Assembly: GCF_024707545.1 (NCBI RefSeq)
Contig: NZ_CP062229.1
Location: 620,001 to 684,000 of the forward strand
DNA length: 64,000 nt
DNA from: Mesorhizobium onobrychidis
GTDB lineage: Bacteria > Pseudomonadota > Alphaproteobacteria > Rhizobiales > Rhizobiaceae
Reading direction: 5' to 3'
Part shown: one piece after another, positions 45,728 through 58,230 of the stretch
Numbering within the stretch: the stretch's first letter is position 1
How the letters are laid out: every line of letters begins with the position of its first letter
Notes under the pieces: generated by a model
What the model was told of the DNA's origin: nothing
The model's input: only the letters and a program-made list of their open reading frames with translations
The model's database searches: none
Position numbers and translations under genes: made by a program

Positions 45728-47260
45728 ATGGTTGCGCGGGTCCGCACGGTGGCTTTCCAGGGCATCGAGGCCGTGCCGGTCGACGTGCAGGTGATGATCG
45801 CGCCGGGCAAGGTCAACATGCACATCGTCGGCCTCGGCGACAAGGCGGTGGCCGAAAGCCGCGAGCGGGTGCAGGCGGCGCTGCATGCGTCGGGCCTGTC
45901 GATGCCGTCGAAGAAGGTCACGGTCAATCTGGCGCCGGCCGACCTGCCCAAGGAAGGCAGCCACTACGATCTGCCGATCGCGCTTGGCCTGATGGCGGCG
46001 CTTGGCGCCATTCCGGGCGACATGCTGGCCGGCTATGTCGTGCTTGGCGAGCTGTCGCTCGATGGCACCATCGCCGCTGTGGCCGGCGCGCTGCCGGCGG
46101 CGATCGGCGCCAATGCCGAAGGCAAAGGCCTGATCTGCCCTTTCGCCTGCGGGCCGGAAGCGGCCTGGGCCGGCAAGGATTTCGATATCCTGGCGCCACG
46201 CAGCCTGATCGCCATCGCCAATCATTTTCGCGGCACGCAGGTTCTGTCGCGGCCGGAAGCCGGCATCCATGCCTCGGCGCGCGACCTGCCGGATCTTGCC
46301 GACATCAAGGGCCAGGAAACCGCCAAGCGGGCGCTGGAGGTGGCGGCGGCCGGCGGCCACAATCTGCTGATGGTCGGACCGCCGGGATCGGGCAAATCGA
46401 TGCTGGCGCAGCGGCTGCCGTCGATCCTGCCGCCACTGGCACCCAGGGAATTGCTCGAAGTCTCGATGATCGCCTCGGTGGCCGGCGAACTCGGCGAAGG
46501 AAAGCTGACCGACCGGCGGCCGTTCCGCGCGCCGCACCATTCGGCCTCGATGGCGGCGATGGTCGGCGGCGGCCTGCGCGTGCGGCCGGGCGAGGCCTCG
46601 CTTGCCCATCACGGCGTGCTGTTCCTCGACGAGTTTCCCGAATTCTCGCCGCAGGCGCTCGATGCGCTGCGCCAGCCGCTGGAGACCGGCGACTGCATGA
46701 TCGCCCGCGCCAATCATCGCGTCACCTATCCGGCGCGCATCCAGCTGGTCGCGGCGATGAACCCGTGCCGCTGCGGCATGGCCGGCGAGCCGGGCTATCG
46801 CTGCCTGCGCGGCGACCGTTGCCGCACCGACTATCAGGCGCGCATTTCCGGCCCGCTGCTCGACCGCATCGATCTCCGGATCGAGGTGCCGGCGGTCTCG
46901 GCCAGCGATCTGATCCGGCCGGACCGGGCAGAGAAGAGTGCCGCCGTGGCGCTGCGCGTGGCCCGCGCCCGGACGATCCAGCGTGAACGCTTCGAACGGC
47001 TCGGCGCGACCTCGGCCACCACCAACGCGCATTGCTCGCCCGCCGTCATCGAGGAGATCGCCATGCCGGATGCAGCAGGCCTGTCGCTGCTCAGGGATGC
47101 CAGCGAAAAACTCGGCTTTTCCGCACGGGCCTATCATCGGGTGCTGAAGGTGGCGCGGACGCTGGCCGATCTCGAGGCCAGCGAAACGGTCGGCCGCATC
47201 CATCTGGCCGAGGCAATTTCCTACCGCATGAGCTCGGAGCGAATGGCGCAGGCGGCGTAG
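45728..47260 (+). CDS. comM: ComM/YifB-type Mg-chelatase-like AAA+ ATPase
   Basis: A 510 aa protein: N-terminal ChlI-like Lon-fold domain (about 1-170; NLAPADLPKEGSHYDLPIAL), AAA+ core with Walker A GPPGSGKS near 218 and Walker B VLFLDEFPE near 300, a zinc-type NPCRCG...C...C cluster near 343-365, and a C-terminal Mg_chelatase_C domain. ComM is a bidirectional branch-migration helicase used in natural transformation. Start after CAGAAAA at 45728. Behind the stop lies a degenerate copy of part of its own sequence (47306-47448). Confidence 0.93.
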   Translation: MVARVRTVAFQGIEAVPVDVQVMIAPGKVNMHIVGLGDKAVAESRERVQAALHASGLSMPSKKVTVNLAPADLPKEGSHYDLPIALGLMAALGAIPGDMLAGYVVLGELSLDGTIAAVAGALPAAIGANAEGKGLICPFACGPEAAWAGKDFDILAPRSLIAIANHFRGTQVLSRPEAGIHASARDLPDLADIKGQETAKRALEVAAAGGHNLLMVGPPGSGKSMLAQRLPSILPPLAPRELLEVSMIASVAGELGEGKLTDRRPFRAPHHSASMAAMVGGGLRVRPGEASLAHHGVLFLDEFPEFSPQALDALRQPLETGDCMIARANHRVTYPARIQLVAAMNPCRCGMAGEPGYRCLRGDRCRTDYQARISGPLLDRIDLRIEVPAVSASDLIRPDRAEKSAAVALRVARARTIQRERFERLGATSATTNAHCSPAVIEEIAMPDAAGLSLLRDASEKLGFSARAYHRVLKVARTLADLEASETVGRIHLAEAISYRMSSERMAQAA

Positions 47261-47305: not shown

Positions 47306-47448
47306 TTGCCGGCGGCGATCGGCCCCAAGGCCGAAGACAGGGCCGGATCTACCCCTTCGCCTGCGGGCCGGGAGCGGCCGGGCCGGCGAGCAATTCGACA
47401 GACTGGTGCTACGCAGCCTGATCGCTATCGCCTTCCATTTCGCGGCAG
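47306..47448 (+). pseudogene. Degenerate duplicate of an internal comM segment
   Basis: This stretch aligns with comM bases about 46090-46234, including exact runs TTCGCCTGCGGGCC and ACGCAGCCTGATCGC, with small indels that break the frame. In protein terms it recalls GLICPFACGPEAA...SLIAIANHF. It begins about 45 bases after the comM stop and ends against the stop of the next (leftward) gene. No start or function is retained. Confidence 0.75.
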
Positions 47449-52824: not shown

Positions 52825-52937
52825 ATTTTGGCAGCGGTCCGGGGCGGCGAGGTTTTTGCTGTGAAGCCCTTACCCGATATGGCCCGGCCGATAAAGCCGC
52901 GAGCGCTGGGCCAATAGGCGATGATCGTAGTGACGGC

Positions 52938-52996
52938 CAATCTCCCCCCAAGTGGGGGAGATGTCCGGCAGGACAGAGGGGGGCGCGAAGGATCGC
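52938..52996. repeat. Family C palindromic element, half copy
   Basis: atctccccccaagtggggg hairpin followed by atgtccggcaggacagaggg, matching the right half of the element at 21218-21377, including the adjoining gcgaaggatcgc. It lies just downstream of the frameshifted DUF559 gene. Confidence 0.75.
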
Positions 52997-53011
52997 CTAC
53001 TTTGCCACGAT

Positions 53012-53388
53012 CTAAGGGACCGCGGCGAGCCCAGCCGCTATCACAATATGCTGGCAGACATTGTCGATGTCGCGGATAATGTCGTCGTTCCAGAAGCGTA
53101 GAACGGTCCAGCCATCCTTTTCCAGACGCAATGTCCTTTCCTCATCGCCGGCGACAGCATCGCCTGCGCGTGCTGGGAGCCGTCGACCTCGACGATCAGT
53201 TTCTTCTCCGGGCAAGCGAAGTCGACAATGTAACCGGCAATCGGAAATTGTCGCCGGAAGCCAAGTCCCATCAGCCGGTGTGCGCGAAGCTCGTTCCAGA
53301 GTTTCAGCTCGGCATCGGTCATGACCTTGCGCATCGATCTGGCGTTTGCGCGATGTTTTGGAGGCAGTGGCGTGTGAGGCATTGTCAA
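53012..53388 (-). pseudogene. DUF559 (VSR-like endonuclease fold) gene with a frameshift
   Basis: Reading from the ATG at 53388, one frame gives RKVMTDAELKLWNELRAHR, GLGFRRQFPIAGYIVDF and KLIVEVDGSQHAQ, the front of a DUF559 endonuclease-like protein; the next frame then gives DEERTLRLEKDGWTVLRFWN and the expected end. The 377-base span is not a multiple of three, so one indel near 53160-53170 joins them. Normal DUF559 proteins are about 120-125 aa. Family C palindromes flank it on both sides. Confidence 0.78.
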
Positions 53389-53420
53389 TGCTCGGTCGCA
53401 GCCAGGGTTGGAGCTCTACG

Positions 53421-53577
53421 GCGCCCCCCTCTGTCCTGCCGGACATCTCCCCCACGAGGGGGGAGATTGGCAGCTTGGCCGGTGGCACCCTCCTTGCAGC
53501 GTTGAAAATTCGCGAAAGCGTGGGCGTCTCCGATCTCCCCCTATGTTGGGGAGATGTCCGGCAGGACAGAGGGGGCC
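53421..53577. repeat. Palindromic intergenic element, family C, copy 2
   Basis: gcgcccccctctgtcctgcc, a CATCTCCCCC/GGGGGAGATT hairpin, a 60-base centre, then a mirrored end gatgtccggcaggacagagg. Same plan and near-identical ends as 21218-21377. It lies between the DUF559 relic and the interrupted secreted protein. Confidence 0.8.
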
Positions 53578-53617
53578 GCTGGTCCCTCCAACCTCTCAGC
53601 GATAGGGCAAGGCCGCA

Positions 53618-54108: not shown

Positions 54109-54260
54109 CCTTCTCCCCCTTTGTTTGGACTGGGGCATCGCGCTTCTGTGCTTGAACGGCATCCCGAACCCCCCTCACGCACAACGCGCGAAACTGTTCG
54201 CGATGTCCTCGCACACCTGTTCGCGATGTCCCAGTCCAAACAAAGGAGGAGAAGGGGGAG
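54109..54260. repeat. Palindromic intergenic element, family D
   Basis: Long terminal inverted repeat: ctccccctttgtttggactg near 54113 mirrors cagtccaaacaaaggaggag near 54231, with arms of over 30 bp continuing into catcgcg/cgcgatg. Near the right end ttcgcgatgtcc is directly repeated 23 bases apart. It lies between the interrupted secreted protein and the membrane protein gene. The plan resembles family A but the ends differ. Confidence 0.75.
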
Positions 54261-54263
54261 CGC

Positions 54264-54773
54264 CTACCTCAACACCGCCACATGCGGCGCGAGCCGCCGG
54301 ATCGCCGCGATCATGTCGGCGCCGGTGATGTCGAGCGAGGAGATCTCCATATGGACGATGTTTCTGCCAAAGGGCAGCAAGAGGCCGAGCGCATTGGCCG
54401 GTGCATATCTGATCGCATCGGGAGGCGGCTCGGTCAGTTCGAAGCTGATCATCGCCGCGCCTTTGCCGGAGGTGAGATGCACGCTGCGCACCTTGTCCCA
54501 GGGCACCAGCACGTCGCCGCCGCGCCGGTCGCGAAACCCGCTGGCGTCGAGCACTACCTGGACGCCGGTGTCGAACGCGCCGCGCGCCAGGAACAGACCA
54601 AGCCCCAGGCAGCCAAGCGCCAGCACCACCACCAGGAACAGCCCTTGGCCCGGGGCGCCTGACGCAAGCCCCTTCAGCGCGAAGAAGCCAAAGATCGCAG
54701 CGATCAGGAGCGGCCCGAGCGCGGGAAAGATTTTTCCGGTGGGGCTGTTGCGGATTTCGACGGGCGAAGACAT
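54264..54773 (-). CDS. Small membrane protein, STM3941-like
   Basis: A 169 aa protein with two close N-terminal membrane segments (about 20-38 and 44-63) followed by a beta-rich cytoplasmic domain (VVLDASGFRDRRGG, VPWDKVRSVHLT, IVHMEISSLDI). This layout matches small membrane proteins with a PH-like domain, some annotated STM3941 family; function unknown. It begins 7 bases after the next membrane protein and probably shares its transcript. Confidence 0.65.
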   Translation of the reverse strand: MSSPVEIRNSPTGKIFPALGPLLIAAIFGFFALKGLASGAPGQGLFLVVVLALGCLGLGLFLARGAFDTGVQVVLDASGFRDRRGGDVLVPWDKVRSVHLTSGKGAAMISFELTEPPPDAIRYAPANALGLLLPFGRNIVHMEISSLDITGADMIAAIRRLAPHVAVLR

Positions 54774-54780
54774 GGGCCAC

Positions 54781-55305
54781 TCATCGGCCGGGCTTCAGCA
54801 GGGTCCAGATCCAGCCGATGAAGGTGAGGACCAGAAACGGATATCCGGCAGCGGGCAGGGGTGCCGAGGTCGGCAGCAAAGGGGCGCCCCAGAGGATCAG
54901 GCCCGCCGACGCGACAAACAGCACAGCGGCCACCATCGCCGTCAGGCGCATCCACAAGGCGAAGGTTTTCGGCGCGCTGACCATGATAAGCGCGGCCGCC
55001 CAAAGCGAGATGCCGCCGACATAGGAGGGCACGCTGGCCTCGAGGCCCGCCGCATTGCCTGCCAGCAGCAGGCTCTCGCCGGCGACGAAGGTCAAGAATC
55101 CGGCCGCCACGCAGTCGTTGCCTTGCCGCTGATACTTCATGGTCAACAGCGCGGCTGCCACCACGAGTGCGACGCCGTCGATCGTCCAGAGTGTTTCGCG
55201 CAGCCCGGCGCTCGCCACGAAGGTGCCGGCAAGGCCCAAGGCGCCACCGATGGCGAGGCCGATCGCGGCGACGATATCGGAGATGGCAGGGTTGGCGGAA
55301 CGCAT
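54781..55305 (-). CDS. Hypothetical integral membrane protein
   Basis: A 174 aa protein with five or so hydrophobic segments (e.g. IVAAIGLAIGGALGLAGTFV, LWTIDGVALVVAAALL, MRLTAMVAAVLFVASAGLIL). No motif or family recognised. The ATG at 55305 is preceded by GGAGGTCCTCAC; an in-frame ATG 24 bases upstream has a weaker site. It forms a pair with the STM3941-like gene. Confidence 0.6.
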   Translation of the reverse strand: MRSANPAISDIVAAIGLAIGGALGLAGTFVASAGLRETLWTIDGVALVVAAALLTMKYQRQGNDCVAAGFLTFVAGESLLLAGNAAGLEASVPSYVGGISLWAAALIMVSAPKTFALWMRLTAMVAAVLFVASAGLILWGAPLLPTSAPLPAAGYPFLVLTFIGWIWTLLKPGR

Positions 55306-55414
55306 GTGAGGACCTCCCTCCAAGCCCAAGGATACTTCAGGACAGGGTGTTCTCCAATCGTTGGCTTTCGTGGCCTCCAGCTCTCATCCTTCGGGGTTAA
55401 GCGGGCGCAGCCGC

Positions 55415-55538
55415 TCAATCCCCCATCTTCAGCGCCTGGATGAACGCCTCCTGCGGGATATCCACTTTGCCGAACTGCCGCACGCGCTCCTCTTTCTGCC
55501 TGGCAAACAGGTCGCGCTTGCGGGTCACGGCGCCGCCG
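55415..55538 (-). pseudogene. Diverged copy of the lepA 3' end
   Basis: On the minus strand this reads [19 protein letters not shown] then [18 protein letters not shown] and stop, parallel to the last 40 codons of lepA at 56425-56550 but with 6 bases missing and several substitutions upstream. The final 51 bases including the stop are identical to lepA. It has no start. A membrane-protein gene lies between this copy and intact lepA. Confidence 0.85.
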
Positions 55539-56205
55539 GGCGCTCCCGGCAAAAGTACAGGATCGCGGCCATGACGCCCAGCAATACGAAACCATATGGC
55601 GAGAGCGCCACGGCTCGTTCTGCTGCTTCCAAGGTGATCAACCTGCCCTGGTTTTCGTTGCGCGCGATGATCGCAGCGACCATTGCGTCATGGTAGAATA
55701 GTATGTTGACCGCCATGACGAAGACGCCGCTCGCCAGCAAGGCACCGTTGAGCAGCTTTGCACCGGTTGCGAACCTGAGCAACATGATGCCTCCCAAACC
55801 ATAGAGCGCTCCGTAGACCGTCAACACGACCAACTTGAGCGGTGTTTCCTCGACCATGAAAAGAAATGGCACGCCGCTGCCGGGTTCGGTCCCGCGCACC
55901 AGCTCGTTGAGGCCGGACAGGATTCCGGCCGTCCCAAGGAGGAGGTTTGGCCATTGGCGAAGCTGGACACCGGCGTCCCACTCAGCGACCGCATAGGAGA
56001 GCAGATACTCACCGAGCGAGAGGTTCAGCAGGCGACTAATCGAGAGCAAGACCAGGGAGATGACGATTTGCGCCGACCATGGCAAAGGTCCGCCAAACGC
56101 AGCTTCCGGAAGTGATGGCACTAGATAGACGGCCAGGCCTACGACGGCGTTGATCCAGATGAAATCGAGAAAAAGCGAAAGGAACGGAACAACATATTTG
56201 CGCAT
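55525..56205 (-). CDS. Hypothetical multi-pass membrane protein
   Basis: A 226 aa protein with about six hydrophobic stretches ([74 protein letters not shown] and [14 protein letters not shown]). No recognised family. The start ATG 56205 has a weak ribosome site; 56244 is an alternative. Its 3' end overlaps the lepA 3' fragment by 14 bases. It lies between intact lepA and the lepA relic, so it may be cargo of an insertion. Confidence 0.6.
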
Positions 56206-56289
56206 GAAAGGCGATTTTTCCCAAGACCCGAGGCAAAGATACAATCGGGGGTGGAAAACGCAATGGCGATTGGGTCGTTACACCCGTTC

Positions 56290-56424
56290 TCCACCGTGCA
56301 GCTTCAGCGCCGCGCTGGCGGGGGGCCAGCTGCCTCCGGCAGCTCCCCCGCTTTCGAAGCCTGACATCGATCCACCGGATCGATGTCTCGGCGCCGCGCT
56401 TCGCGCGGACGCCCGACCGGCTTC
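56290..56424. repeat. Hairpin cluster downstream of lepA
   Basis: Three stems follow one another: CCAGCTGCCTCCGGCAGCT, the perfect GACATCGATCC-ACC-GGATCGATGTC, and GGCGCCGCGCTTCGCGCGGACG. They end at the lepA stop and may terminate lepA or belong to another palindromic repeat type. Confidence 0.65.
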
Positions 56425-58230
56425 TCAATCCCCCATCTTCAGCGCCTGGATGAACGCCTCCTGCGGGATATCCACCTTGCCGAACTGGCGCATGCGCTTC
56501 TTGCCCTCTTTCTGCTTGTCGAGCAGCTTGCGCTTGCGCGAGACGTCGCCGCCGTAGCATTTGGCGGTGACGTCCTTGCGCAGCGCCGAGATGGTTTCGC
56601 GGGCGATGACCTTGCCGCCTATTGCCGCCTGGATCGGGATCTTGAACAGATGGTGCGGGATCAGCTCCTTCAGCTTCTCGCACATCAGCCGGCCGCGCTT
56701 TTCCGCCGCCGTGCGGTGGACCAGCATCGACAGCGCGTCGACCGGCTCCTCATTGACCAGGATCGACATCTTCACCAGGTCGCCCTCGCGATAGTCGGTC
56801 AGATGATAGTCGAAGGAGGCGTAGCCCTTGGAGATCGACTTCAGCCGGTCGTAGAAGTCGAAGACGACCTCGTTGAGCGGCAGATCGTAGGTCAGCATGG
56901 CGCGCTTGCCGACATAGGAAAGGTCGGCCTGGATGCCGCGCCGGTCCTGGCAGAGTTTTAGGATGCCGCCGAGATACTCGTCCGGGGTCAGGATGGTGGC
57001 GCGGATCCACGGCTCCTCGATGGCCTGGATCTTGACCACGTCGGGCATGTCGGCCGGGTTGTGCAATTCCTTCGTCGTGCCGTCGTTCAAAGCCAAGCGG
57101 TAGACGACGCTCGGCGCGGTGGCGATGAGGTCGAGGTTGAACTCGCGCTCCAGCCGCTCCTGGATGATTTCGAGGTGCAAAAGGCCAAGGAAGCCGCAGC
57201 GATAGCCGAAGCCGAGCGCGGCGGAGGTCTCCATTTCATAAGAGAAAGAAGCGTCGTTGAGGCGGAGCTTGCCGACCGCGGCGCGCAGATCCTCGAAATC
57301 GGCGGCGTCAACCGGGAACAGGCCGCAGAACACCACCGGCTGCGCCGGCTTGAAGCCTGGCAGGGCCTGGGCCGTCTGGCGCTTGTCCTCGGTGATGGTG
57401 TCGCCGACGCGGGTATCGGCGACTTCCTTGATCGAGCCGGTGAAGAAGCCGAATTCGCCGGGGCCGAGCCCGTCGACATTGATGCGGGCCGGCGTGAAGA
57501 CGCCGGTGCGCTCGACAAGGTACTTGGCGCCGGTGCCCATCATGCGGATGGTCTGGCCCTTCTTCAGCACGCCGTCGATTATGCGGACCAGCACGATGAC
57601 GCCGAGATAGGCGTCGTACCAGCTGTCGACCAGCATCGCCTTCAGCGGTGCGGCGATGTCGCCCTCGCGCGGCGGCGGCAAATCGTTGACGATCGCCTCC
57701 AGCACGTCGGGAATGCCCAGCCCGGTCTTGGCCGAGATCAGCACGGCGTTGGAGGCATCGATGCCGATCACCTCCTCGACCTGCTCGCGGATGCGCTCGG
57801 GCTCGGCGGCCGGCAGGTCGACCTTGTTCAGCACCACGACGATCTCGTGGTTGTTGTCGATGGCCTGGTAGACATTGGCCAGCGTCTGCGCCTCGACGCC
57901 TTGAGAGGCATCGACGACCAGCAGCGAGCCTTCGCAGGCGGCGAGCGACCGCGACACTTCGTAGGCGAAGTCGACATGGCCGGGCGTATCGATCAGGTTG
58001 AGGATATAGTCCTCGCCATTGTTGGCGCGGTATTTCAGCCGCACCGTCTGCGCCTTGATGGTGATGCCGCGCTCACGCTCGATATCCATCGAGTCCAGCA
58101 CCTGCTCCTTCATGTCGCGCAGCTCCAGCCCGCCGGTGGACTGGATCAACCGGTCGGCAAGCGTGGATTTGCCATGGTCGATATGGGCGACGATGGAGAA
58201 ATTGCGGATGTTCTTGATCGGCGTGGTCAT
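56425..58230 (-). CDS. lepA: Elongation factor 4 (LepA)
   Basis: A 601 aa ribosomal GTPase that back-translocates stalled ribosomes. G1 AHIDHGKST near residue 15, G3 DTPGH near 82, G4 NKVD near 136, then EF-G-like domains III-V and the LepA-specific C-terminal domain ending [17 protein letters not shown]. Membrane-associated under some conditions. The end is duplicated at 55415-55538. It faces a TadG-like gene across 184 bases. Confidence 0.98.

Follow-up and report, generated by a model that had tools for sequence, protein, structure and literature searches.

We consider it reasonably probable that the repeated 3′ end of lepA in Mesorhizobium onobrychidis is a recombination scar, left in a hypervariable and defence-gene-rich exchange site between lepA and its conserved neighbour g2 that apparently works without an integrase. 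The window, i.e. the whole stretch of DNA analysed, is 64 kb long and corresponds to positions 620001-684000 of contig C1 in a genome of 7.55 Mb (G000, with its lepA locus designated L047). Its relevant features are collected in Table 1. lepA was found in 142/146 Mesorhizobium genomes; from 120 of these 142 we took up to 15 kb of sequence downstream of lepA, 5 of the 120 having less than 2 kb after the gene.

Table 1. Features around the lepA 3′ end in the window (window coordinates) and starts of the displaced lepA ends in the genus (relative to the lepA stop)
Feature	Position	Strand	Remark
lepA	56425..58230	-	complete, 601 aa; from the ORF list
52-base run identical to the displaced copy	56424..56475	-	51 bases of lepA and 1 past the stop
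type-A lepA 3′ UTR	56294..56424	-	hairpin-like palindromes (read by eye)
cargo gene, 226-aa helical membrane protein	55525..56205	-	ORF open from 56244; probable ATG at 56205; GC 57%
CGGCGGC at the membrane gene/lepA′ join	55532..55538	-	occurs in lepA too, and in M. amorphae (L066) within the uninterrupted membrane gene
lepA′, displaced and decayed lepA 3′ end	55415..55538	-	-129/-130 to stop; from alignments
native stretch between lepA′ end and g2	55306..55413	-	its g2 end is conserved and promoter-like
g2, conserved neighbour that flanks the hotspot on the right	54781..55329	-	no Pfam family over its cut-off
g3, next conserved neighbour	54264..54773	-	fragments also occur as scars in relatives
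scar start, L047 (M. onobrychidis) and L050 (G039)	-129		one allele
scar start, L135 (G137)	-134		
scar start, L109 (G126)	-174		
scar start, L096 (G084)	about -271		
scar start, L064 (G073)	-312		

In agreement with the original prediction, the alignment placed an exact repeat of the last 51 bases of lepA about 1 kb downstream, followed by a diverged stretch with a 6-base gap. Precisely, 56424-56475 is identical to 55414-55465 (the last 51 lepA bases and one beyond the stop), and past this exact run the likeness reaches 55538 with mismatches and the single 6-bp gap (85% over 130 columns), so that the copy (55415-55538, hereafter lepA′) comprises 124 bp of the lepA 3′ end and lies 1,010 bp from the functional end. 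The membrane-protein gene announced between both copies was also recovered, its ORF (55525-56244) overlapping lepA′ by 14 bp. The 52-base match is the longest direct repeat found in the window for copies at most 12 kb apart, and for an exact match of this length 1 kb apart chance is excluded; we also rejected a chance repeat or an assembly artefact, given that M. prunaredense (L050) has the arrangement too and that there are scars elsewhere. A search for the lepA tip, in which the best 5 candidates per genome were considered, returned no third copy in the M. onobrychidis genome.

Other repeats were seen in the window. At 52937-53579, palindromic repeats (GATCTCCCCC...GGGGGAGATGTCCGGCAGGACAGAGGGGG) stand on both sides of a DUF559 gene (53041-53388); at 54109-54255, a 34-bp inverted repeat (94% complementary) surrounds the 5′ end of the g4 ORF; and two direct-repeat pairs with an equal spacing of ~1,213 bp (46127-46227 and 47341-47440) are probably a tandem gene duplication.

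Empty sites, which it had been proposed to look for in related strains, are present in two genomes, L049 (G140) and L051 (G089), in which the lepA stop is followed by 84-90 bp and then by g2. The sequence after lepA′ matches L049 at 90.2% over 297 bp, starting 5 bp past its lepA stop, and L051 at 92.2% over 281 bp, starting 11 bp past its lepA stop. This match makes lepA′ the old native lepA end and the insertion one that entered an empty lepA-g2 site. The suggestion that the inserted DNA brought a replacement end is thereby borne out: lepA′ is the displaced native end and lepA uses the replacement. It had also been foreseen that all relatives might share the arrangement, as after an old local duplication; among the 120 genus genomes, this scar occurs only in M. 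onobrychidis and G039.

If the lepA end had been duplicated locally in tandem together with the downstream gene, and the second cargo copy had subsequently been deleted, the order lepA-membrane gene-lepA′-g2 would also result. The direct orientation of the copies fits such an event, as do the tandem lepA tips of G150 (see below) and a short stretch similar to g2 (12 residues, E = 8e-4) before lepA′ in G073, which could mark a tandem-duplication joint. The same holds for the comparison between M. onobrychidis and G039, in which cassette and flanks are about equally diverged (identity of 96.0% in lepA, 94.7% in the membrane gene, 95.8% in lepA′, 94.2% in g2-g3 and 92.3% in hydA), an observation that counts against the explanation we prefer. 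However, the sequence after lepA′ matches that of the empty-site species, and the deletion would therefore need to recreate that very junction; moreover, the cargo gene is patchily distributed (15/146 genomes) with a GC content lower than its flanks, and the sequences after lepA and lepA′, which differ from the second base past the stop, are likewise at odds with a duplication. We judge this explanation unlikely.

The preferred reading, a scar of exchange between lepA and g2, draws on the variability of the interval as a whole. Both genes were located in 88/120 genomes, at a distance of 84-5,420 bp (median 2.4 kb), and 79 of these 88 intervals contained cargo in the form of an ORF of 120 aa or more, 37 of the 79 having no cargo cluster in common with any other. 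The mean GC content was 51.1% in the interval versus 63.7% in lepA, the interval being lower in all the 79 intervals longer than 800 bp. The borders are fixed core genes and the gene content between them differs from genome to genome, as in a core-gene-flanked hotspot: on the left the border is the lepA stop or a UTR of ~130 bp, on the right, the conserved and promoter-like sequence that precedes g2. Scars of the right flank, in the form of g2 or g3 fragments, were found in 6/88 intervals. In M. amorphae (L066, G003) a 5′ fragment of g3 (80% over 115 bp) lies ~0.98-1.1 kb after lepA, between the membrane gene and g2.

The 3′ UTR of lepA was of type A in 31, of type B in 19 and of another type in 70 of the 120 genomes, types A and B thus occurring in 50/120 species scattered over the tree. 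On a 45-genome tree (FastTree; 5′ part of lepA, hydA and glcB) the UTR type changed 15 times for 15 tips not classed as 'other', which is the maximum for this raw, unshuffled count and leaves the type without phylogenetic signal by this measure. The stop context GACTAA accompanies type B (13/19 genomes vs 1 of the other 101). Taken together, these two observations suggest that the lepA end travels with the downstream sequence. The UTR was ruled out as a dispersed repeat, since in the M. onobrychidis genome it gave one strong match (itself) and weak short matches.

The membrane-protein gene was found in 15/146 genus genomes. In four genomes the gene comes after lepA without an intervening g2 (M. 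onobrychidis, G039, G003 and G121, the last 49% identical), ten copies follow g2, and the copy of G061 is on a contig that lacks lepA. Among 5.8 billion proteins, 45 relatives were retrieved, and the named ones are from Mesorhizobium, except for one partial sequence labelled E. coli. No Pfam family exceeded its cut-off (best E = 0.0035 among 44 relatives), padloc gave no match for the protein, a point against the preferred reading, and the AlphaFold model, helical with a mean pLDDT of 87, had no Foldseek match in the PDB at E<=0.001. The gene as phage or plasmid cargo was also considered and discarded, with no match in phage or plasmid collections. By its location, we assign it as hotspot cargo.

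To describe the cargo we used a set of 131 representatives, ORFs downstream of lepA with a length of 170 aa or more, drawn also from genomes without a located g2 (in which case up to 5 kb, or the stretch as far as hydA, was considered); some of these ORFs may be false, because they were picked mechanically in GC-rich DNA. Among the first 25 of 86 Pfam families matched by the set were SIR2 (5), reverse transcriptase (5), AAA_15 (4), GmrSD (3) and DndB (3), as well as at least one transposase, and padloc returned several DRT families. For a controlled comparison, padloc was run on a random sample consisting of the longest ORF from each of 30 of the 77 eligible genomes, and, as a control, on the longest ORF 11.5-15 kb downstream in 20 of 68 eligible genomes. 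At E<=1e-10, matches were obtained for 9/30 cargo ORFs vs 0/20 control ORFs (Fisher p = 0.007); at E<=1e-5, for 11/30 vs 3/20 (p = 0.12, not significant). The interval is thus enriched in matches to defence families over neighbouring DNA, an enrichment that rests on strong matches because the difference is significant at the stricter threshold but not at the looser one. Hits such as that to TGT (L153), one of the nine strong matches, indicate family likeness and are no proof of defence, and 21/30 of the sampled cargo ORFs were without a strong match in the defence library.

In one case the padloc assignment was rejected: the G073 cargo, reported as a TIR effector, is a cyclic-nucleotide-gated channel according to both Pfam and PDB, hence padloc matches can mislead. 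This ORF (L064:1989-3050), located between lepA and lepA′, is an orthologue of MlotiK1 (mll3241; cyclic-nucleotide-gated K+ channel; PDB E = 4e-198), a channel well known for its structure, and by clustering L073, L074, L075, L123 and L127 carry cargo of the same cluster. The presence of a MlotiK1 orthologue at a defence-rich hotspot invites the speculation that it might have a role in cyclic-nucleotide signalling against phage.

Displaced lepA ends are present in 6/120 genus genomes as five alleles with varied breakpoints (Table 1). In L047, L050, L064 and L096 (over ~30 bp only in the last) the sequence after lepA′ is what follows a functional lepA elsewhere, and for L109 and L135 there was no match to sequence following functional lepA elsewhere. 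At the family level, lepA was located in 60 other genomes, of which 57 were examined (17 of these with a flank of 1.5 kb or less), and lepA remnants were found in 3/57 (G200, G150 and G172). In G150 (L244), two partial lepA 3′ ends with a spacing of ~104 bp stand in tandem after lepA and are followed by an Abi_2 gene. When the same method was applied to three genes, displaced 3′ ends were found for glcB in 3/44, for hydA in 0/45 and for lepA in 6/115 cases. The displaced pieces of the glcB 3′ end, located downstream of glcB, measure 118, 52 and 88 bp (L052, L055 and L150, respectively). Displaced 3′ ends are therefore not specific to lepA, which argues against one att site; together with the varied scar breakpoints, the glcB remnants point to recombination in core-gene ends combined with microhomology joining, and not to a lepA-specific integrase.

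The original prediction had put forward an integrating element, which in its explicit form would be one with a tyrosine integrase that recognised a core at about -130 of lepA, supplied the gene with a new 3′ end and was stripped of the integrase afterwards, with lepA′ as attR. Of an element integrating into a 3′ end one expects the native end to be displaced and some sites to be empty; both are indeed the case here, and the replacement-end anatomy is of that kind; in addition, two independent scars begin at -129 and -134, the three tandem lepA ends of G150 (one complete and two partial) resemble stacked att remnants, and in a genome of another genus, G191 (L253), a tyrosine integrase is located ~1.5 kb downstream of lepA. 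Against this, the lepA tip of G191 is single in its genome, the remaining scars begin at -174, about -271 and -312, leaving no constant att core, and glcB has similar remnants.

For the integrase itself, we used as queries 40 integrase/resolvase ORFs from M. onobrychidis, i.e. 30 of the 41 PF00589 matches and all the 10 PF00239 matches. None of 1,431 downstream ORFs (>=70 aa) was a relative, a search in which distant families could be missed; of the 30 tyrosine-integrase ORFs, 27 were recovered by the profile made from them. The PF00589 match nearest to the window is weak and lies ~64 kb beyond its right end, with the closest clear match at C1:950224, in accordance with the earlier remark that no integrase is seen. 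The tip search over the 146 genus genomes (best 5 candidates per genome) matched 142, among which no lepA tip marked a large island: second tips adjoin lepA (<=2 kb) in six (G000, G039, G073, G084, G126 and G137), and one further tip, in G063, is on a separate contig where its position relative to lepA is not placeable. With scar starts ranging from -129 to -312, no integrase among the 1,431 ORFs, tips beside lepA and glcB affected too, the integrating element is probably wrong, and we would give the version with a lost integrase little credence.

In the 45-genome tree, M. onobrychidis is sister to the empty-site genome L051, and G039 (M. prunaredense, L050) falls in another group. The scar is old, because it is present in two non-sister species, and their separate positions on the tree would imply that the allele was either exchanged or lost from other lineages. 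lepA of G039 looks mosaic: at informative sites, its first 1,200 bp resemble L057 at 38 and M. onobrychidis at 22, its last 606 bp M. onobrychidis at 23 and L057 at 6 (p = 2e-4), a result that varies with the comparison genome (p = 0.0008 with L055, 0.06 with L052 and 0.81 with L053). A general scan along lepA for increased divergence towards its 3′ end gave a gradient that was confounded by the selection of pairs.

The differences between lepA and lepA′ are unevenly distributed. There are 13 substitutions, 12 in the 72 ungapped upstream columns (a rate of up to 17%) and the thirteenth at -52, immediately ahead of the identical run; split at 52 columns from the stop, this gives 12/72 upstream vs 1/52 at the end, and a Fisher test for the unevenness, computed with the end piece entered as 0/52, yielded p = 0.0013. 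The upstream changes are common to the M. onobrychidis and M. prunaredense copies and hit residues that we take to be conserved in LepA, and for these reasons they have the appearance of decay in a fragment that was displaced; a simple strain difference, to which the divergence had been attributed at the outset, is thus unsupported. At -28, a rare C (8/120 lepA genes) is found in both copies of M. onobrychidis and a T in both copies of G039, and this agreement within each genome suggests gene conversion between the two copies. That the tip is instead kept by selection, as a homology arm or a regulatory element, might be argued from the identity of the last 52 bases, although the upstream part decayed, and from the likeness of the copies at -28 within each of the two genomes, but with 3 changes in the last 16 bases of the G039 tip, the scar in 2/120 genus genomes only, and gene conversion accounting for the identity without selection, we regard this as highly improbable.

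Recombination at the lepA-g2 site could have proceeded as follows. The incoming DNA would have carried the membrane gene together with the 3′ end of a foreign lepA and the 3′ UTR belonging to it, and would have entered a lepA-g2 site that was empty: on one side by homologous recombination inside lepA, which would have provided the replacement 3′ end, and on the other by joining of the cargo to native lepA ~129 bp before the stop, at the GC-rich microhomology CGGCGGC. For the second side we used M. amorphae (L066/G003) as a stand-in for the donor: there the membrane gene (83% identical) follows lepA with no lepA′ copy, and CGGCGGC is found both in lepA and in the end of that membrane gene, at the switch point of M. 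onobrychidis. From this single join we infer that CGGCGGC may be the microhomology used, its occurrence in both partners fitting a microhomology join there, with recombination inside lepA at the opposite side. The native lepA end stayed behind as lepA′ beside its original neighbour g2, as the empty sites show, and has decayed except for the last ~52 bases, probably held identical to lepA by gene conversion. Small cargoes of different kinds occupy this site in many species, and scarring has happened there several times. The starts of the two independent scars lie 5 bp apart (-129 and -134) and a 13-bp deletion in the G073 copy ends there too; a shared recombination site would also explain this clustering.

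A broader proposal can be made tentatively, and we hold it to be possible rather than probable: core-gene 3′ ends such as those of lepA and glcB may serve as integrase-free landing pads in Mesorhizobium and its family, defence cassettes carrying a core-gene tail and 3′ UTR as homology arm. Each insertion could displace the old tail, stacked tails as in G150 could record successive exchanges, and the membrane protein and other unassigned cargoes could be unrecognised defence genes.

Just how genes enter integrase-less hotspots is still an open question, since an exchange by recombination between two intact core genes is normally traceless. Displaced core-gene tails are a trace of exchange that any collection of genomes allows one to count and whose breakpoints are testable, and the lepA-g2 interval is a compact place to seek new defence genes in rhizobia. 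Within the titles and abstract openings searched (subscription papers lying mostly outside the search), we found no published description of the lepA-g2 locus or its scars, and both appear to be undescribed so far.

Some elements integrate into the 3′ ends of protein genes and restore them, with icd, guaA and prfC among the targets. Like these, the lepA locus has a replacement end and a displaced native end; unlike these, it has no integrase that we could find and no constant core, and glcB is affected too. Hotspots flanked by core genes and lacking an integrase are a class already known. Hotspots that lack mobile elements were described by Oliveira et al. (2017; PMC5635113), who proposed that recombination takes place at the core genes flanking them; the lepA-g2 interval resembles them in its variable genes between fixed core genes, its rapid turnover, the failure to find an integrase and, perhaps, some signs of recombination in the flanking core gene. 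It differs in that the lepA flank bears scars, the displaced 3′ ends, recording single insertions, and in that our comparison is genus-wide and theirs within species. The core defence hotspots cDHS1 and cDHS2 of P. aeruginosa (PMC10250203) are similarly bounded by core genes and enriched in anti-phage genes. In contrast, the lepA-g2 interval is smaller (median 2.4 kb vs 26 kb for cDHS1) and no integrase relative was found in it, whereas sites without a detectable mobile gene make up only 29% of cDHS1 and 47% of cDHS2. Finally, homology-facilitated illegitimate recombination (PMC6382021) inserts foreign DNA by means of one homologous anchor and a short-homology join and is known from transformation experiments; the lepA case, read from sequence, would have the same two components, a homologous anchor and a short-homology join, deduced here from one natural junction.
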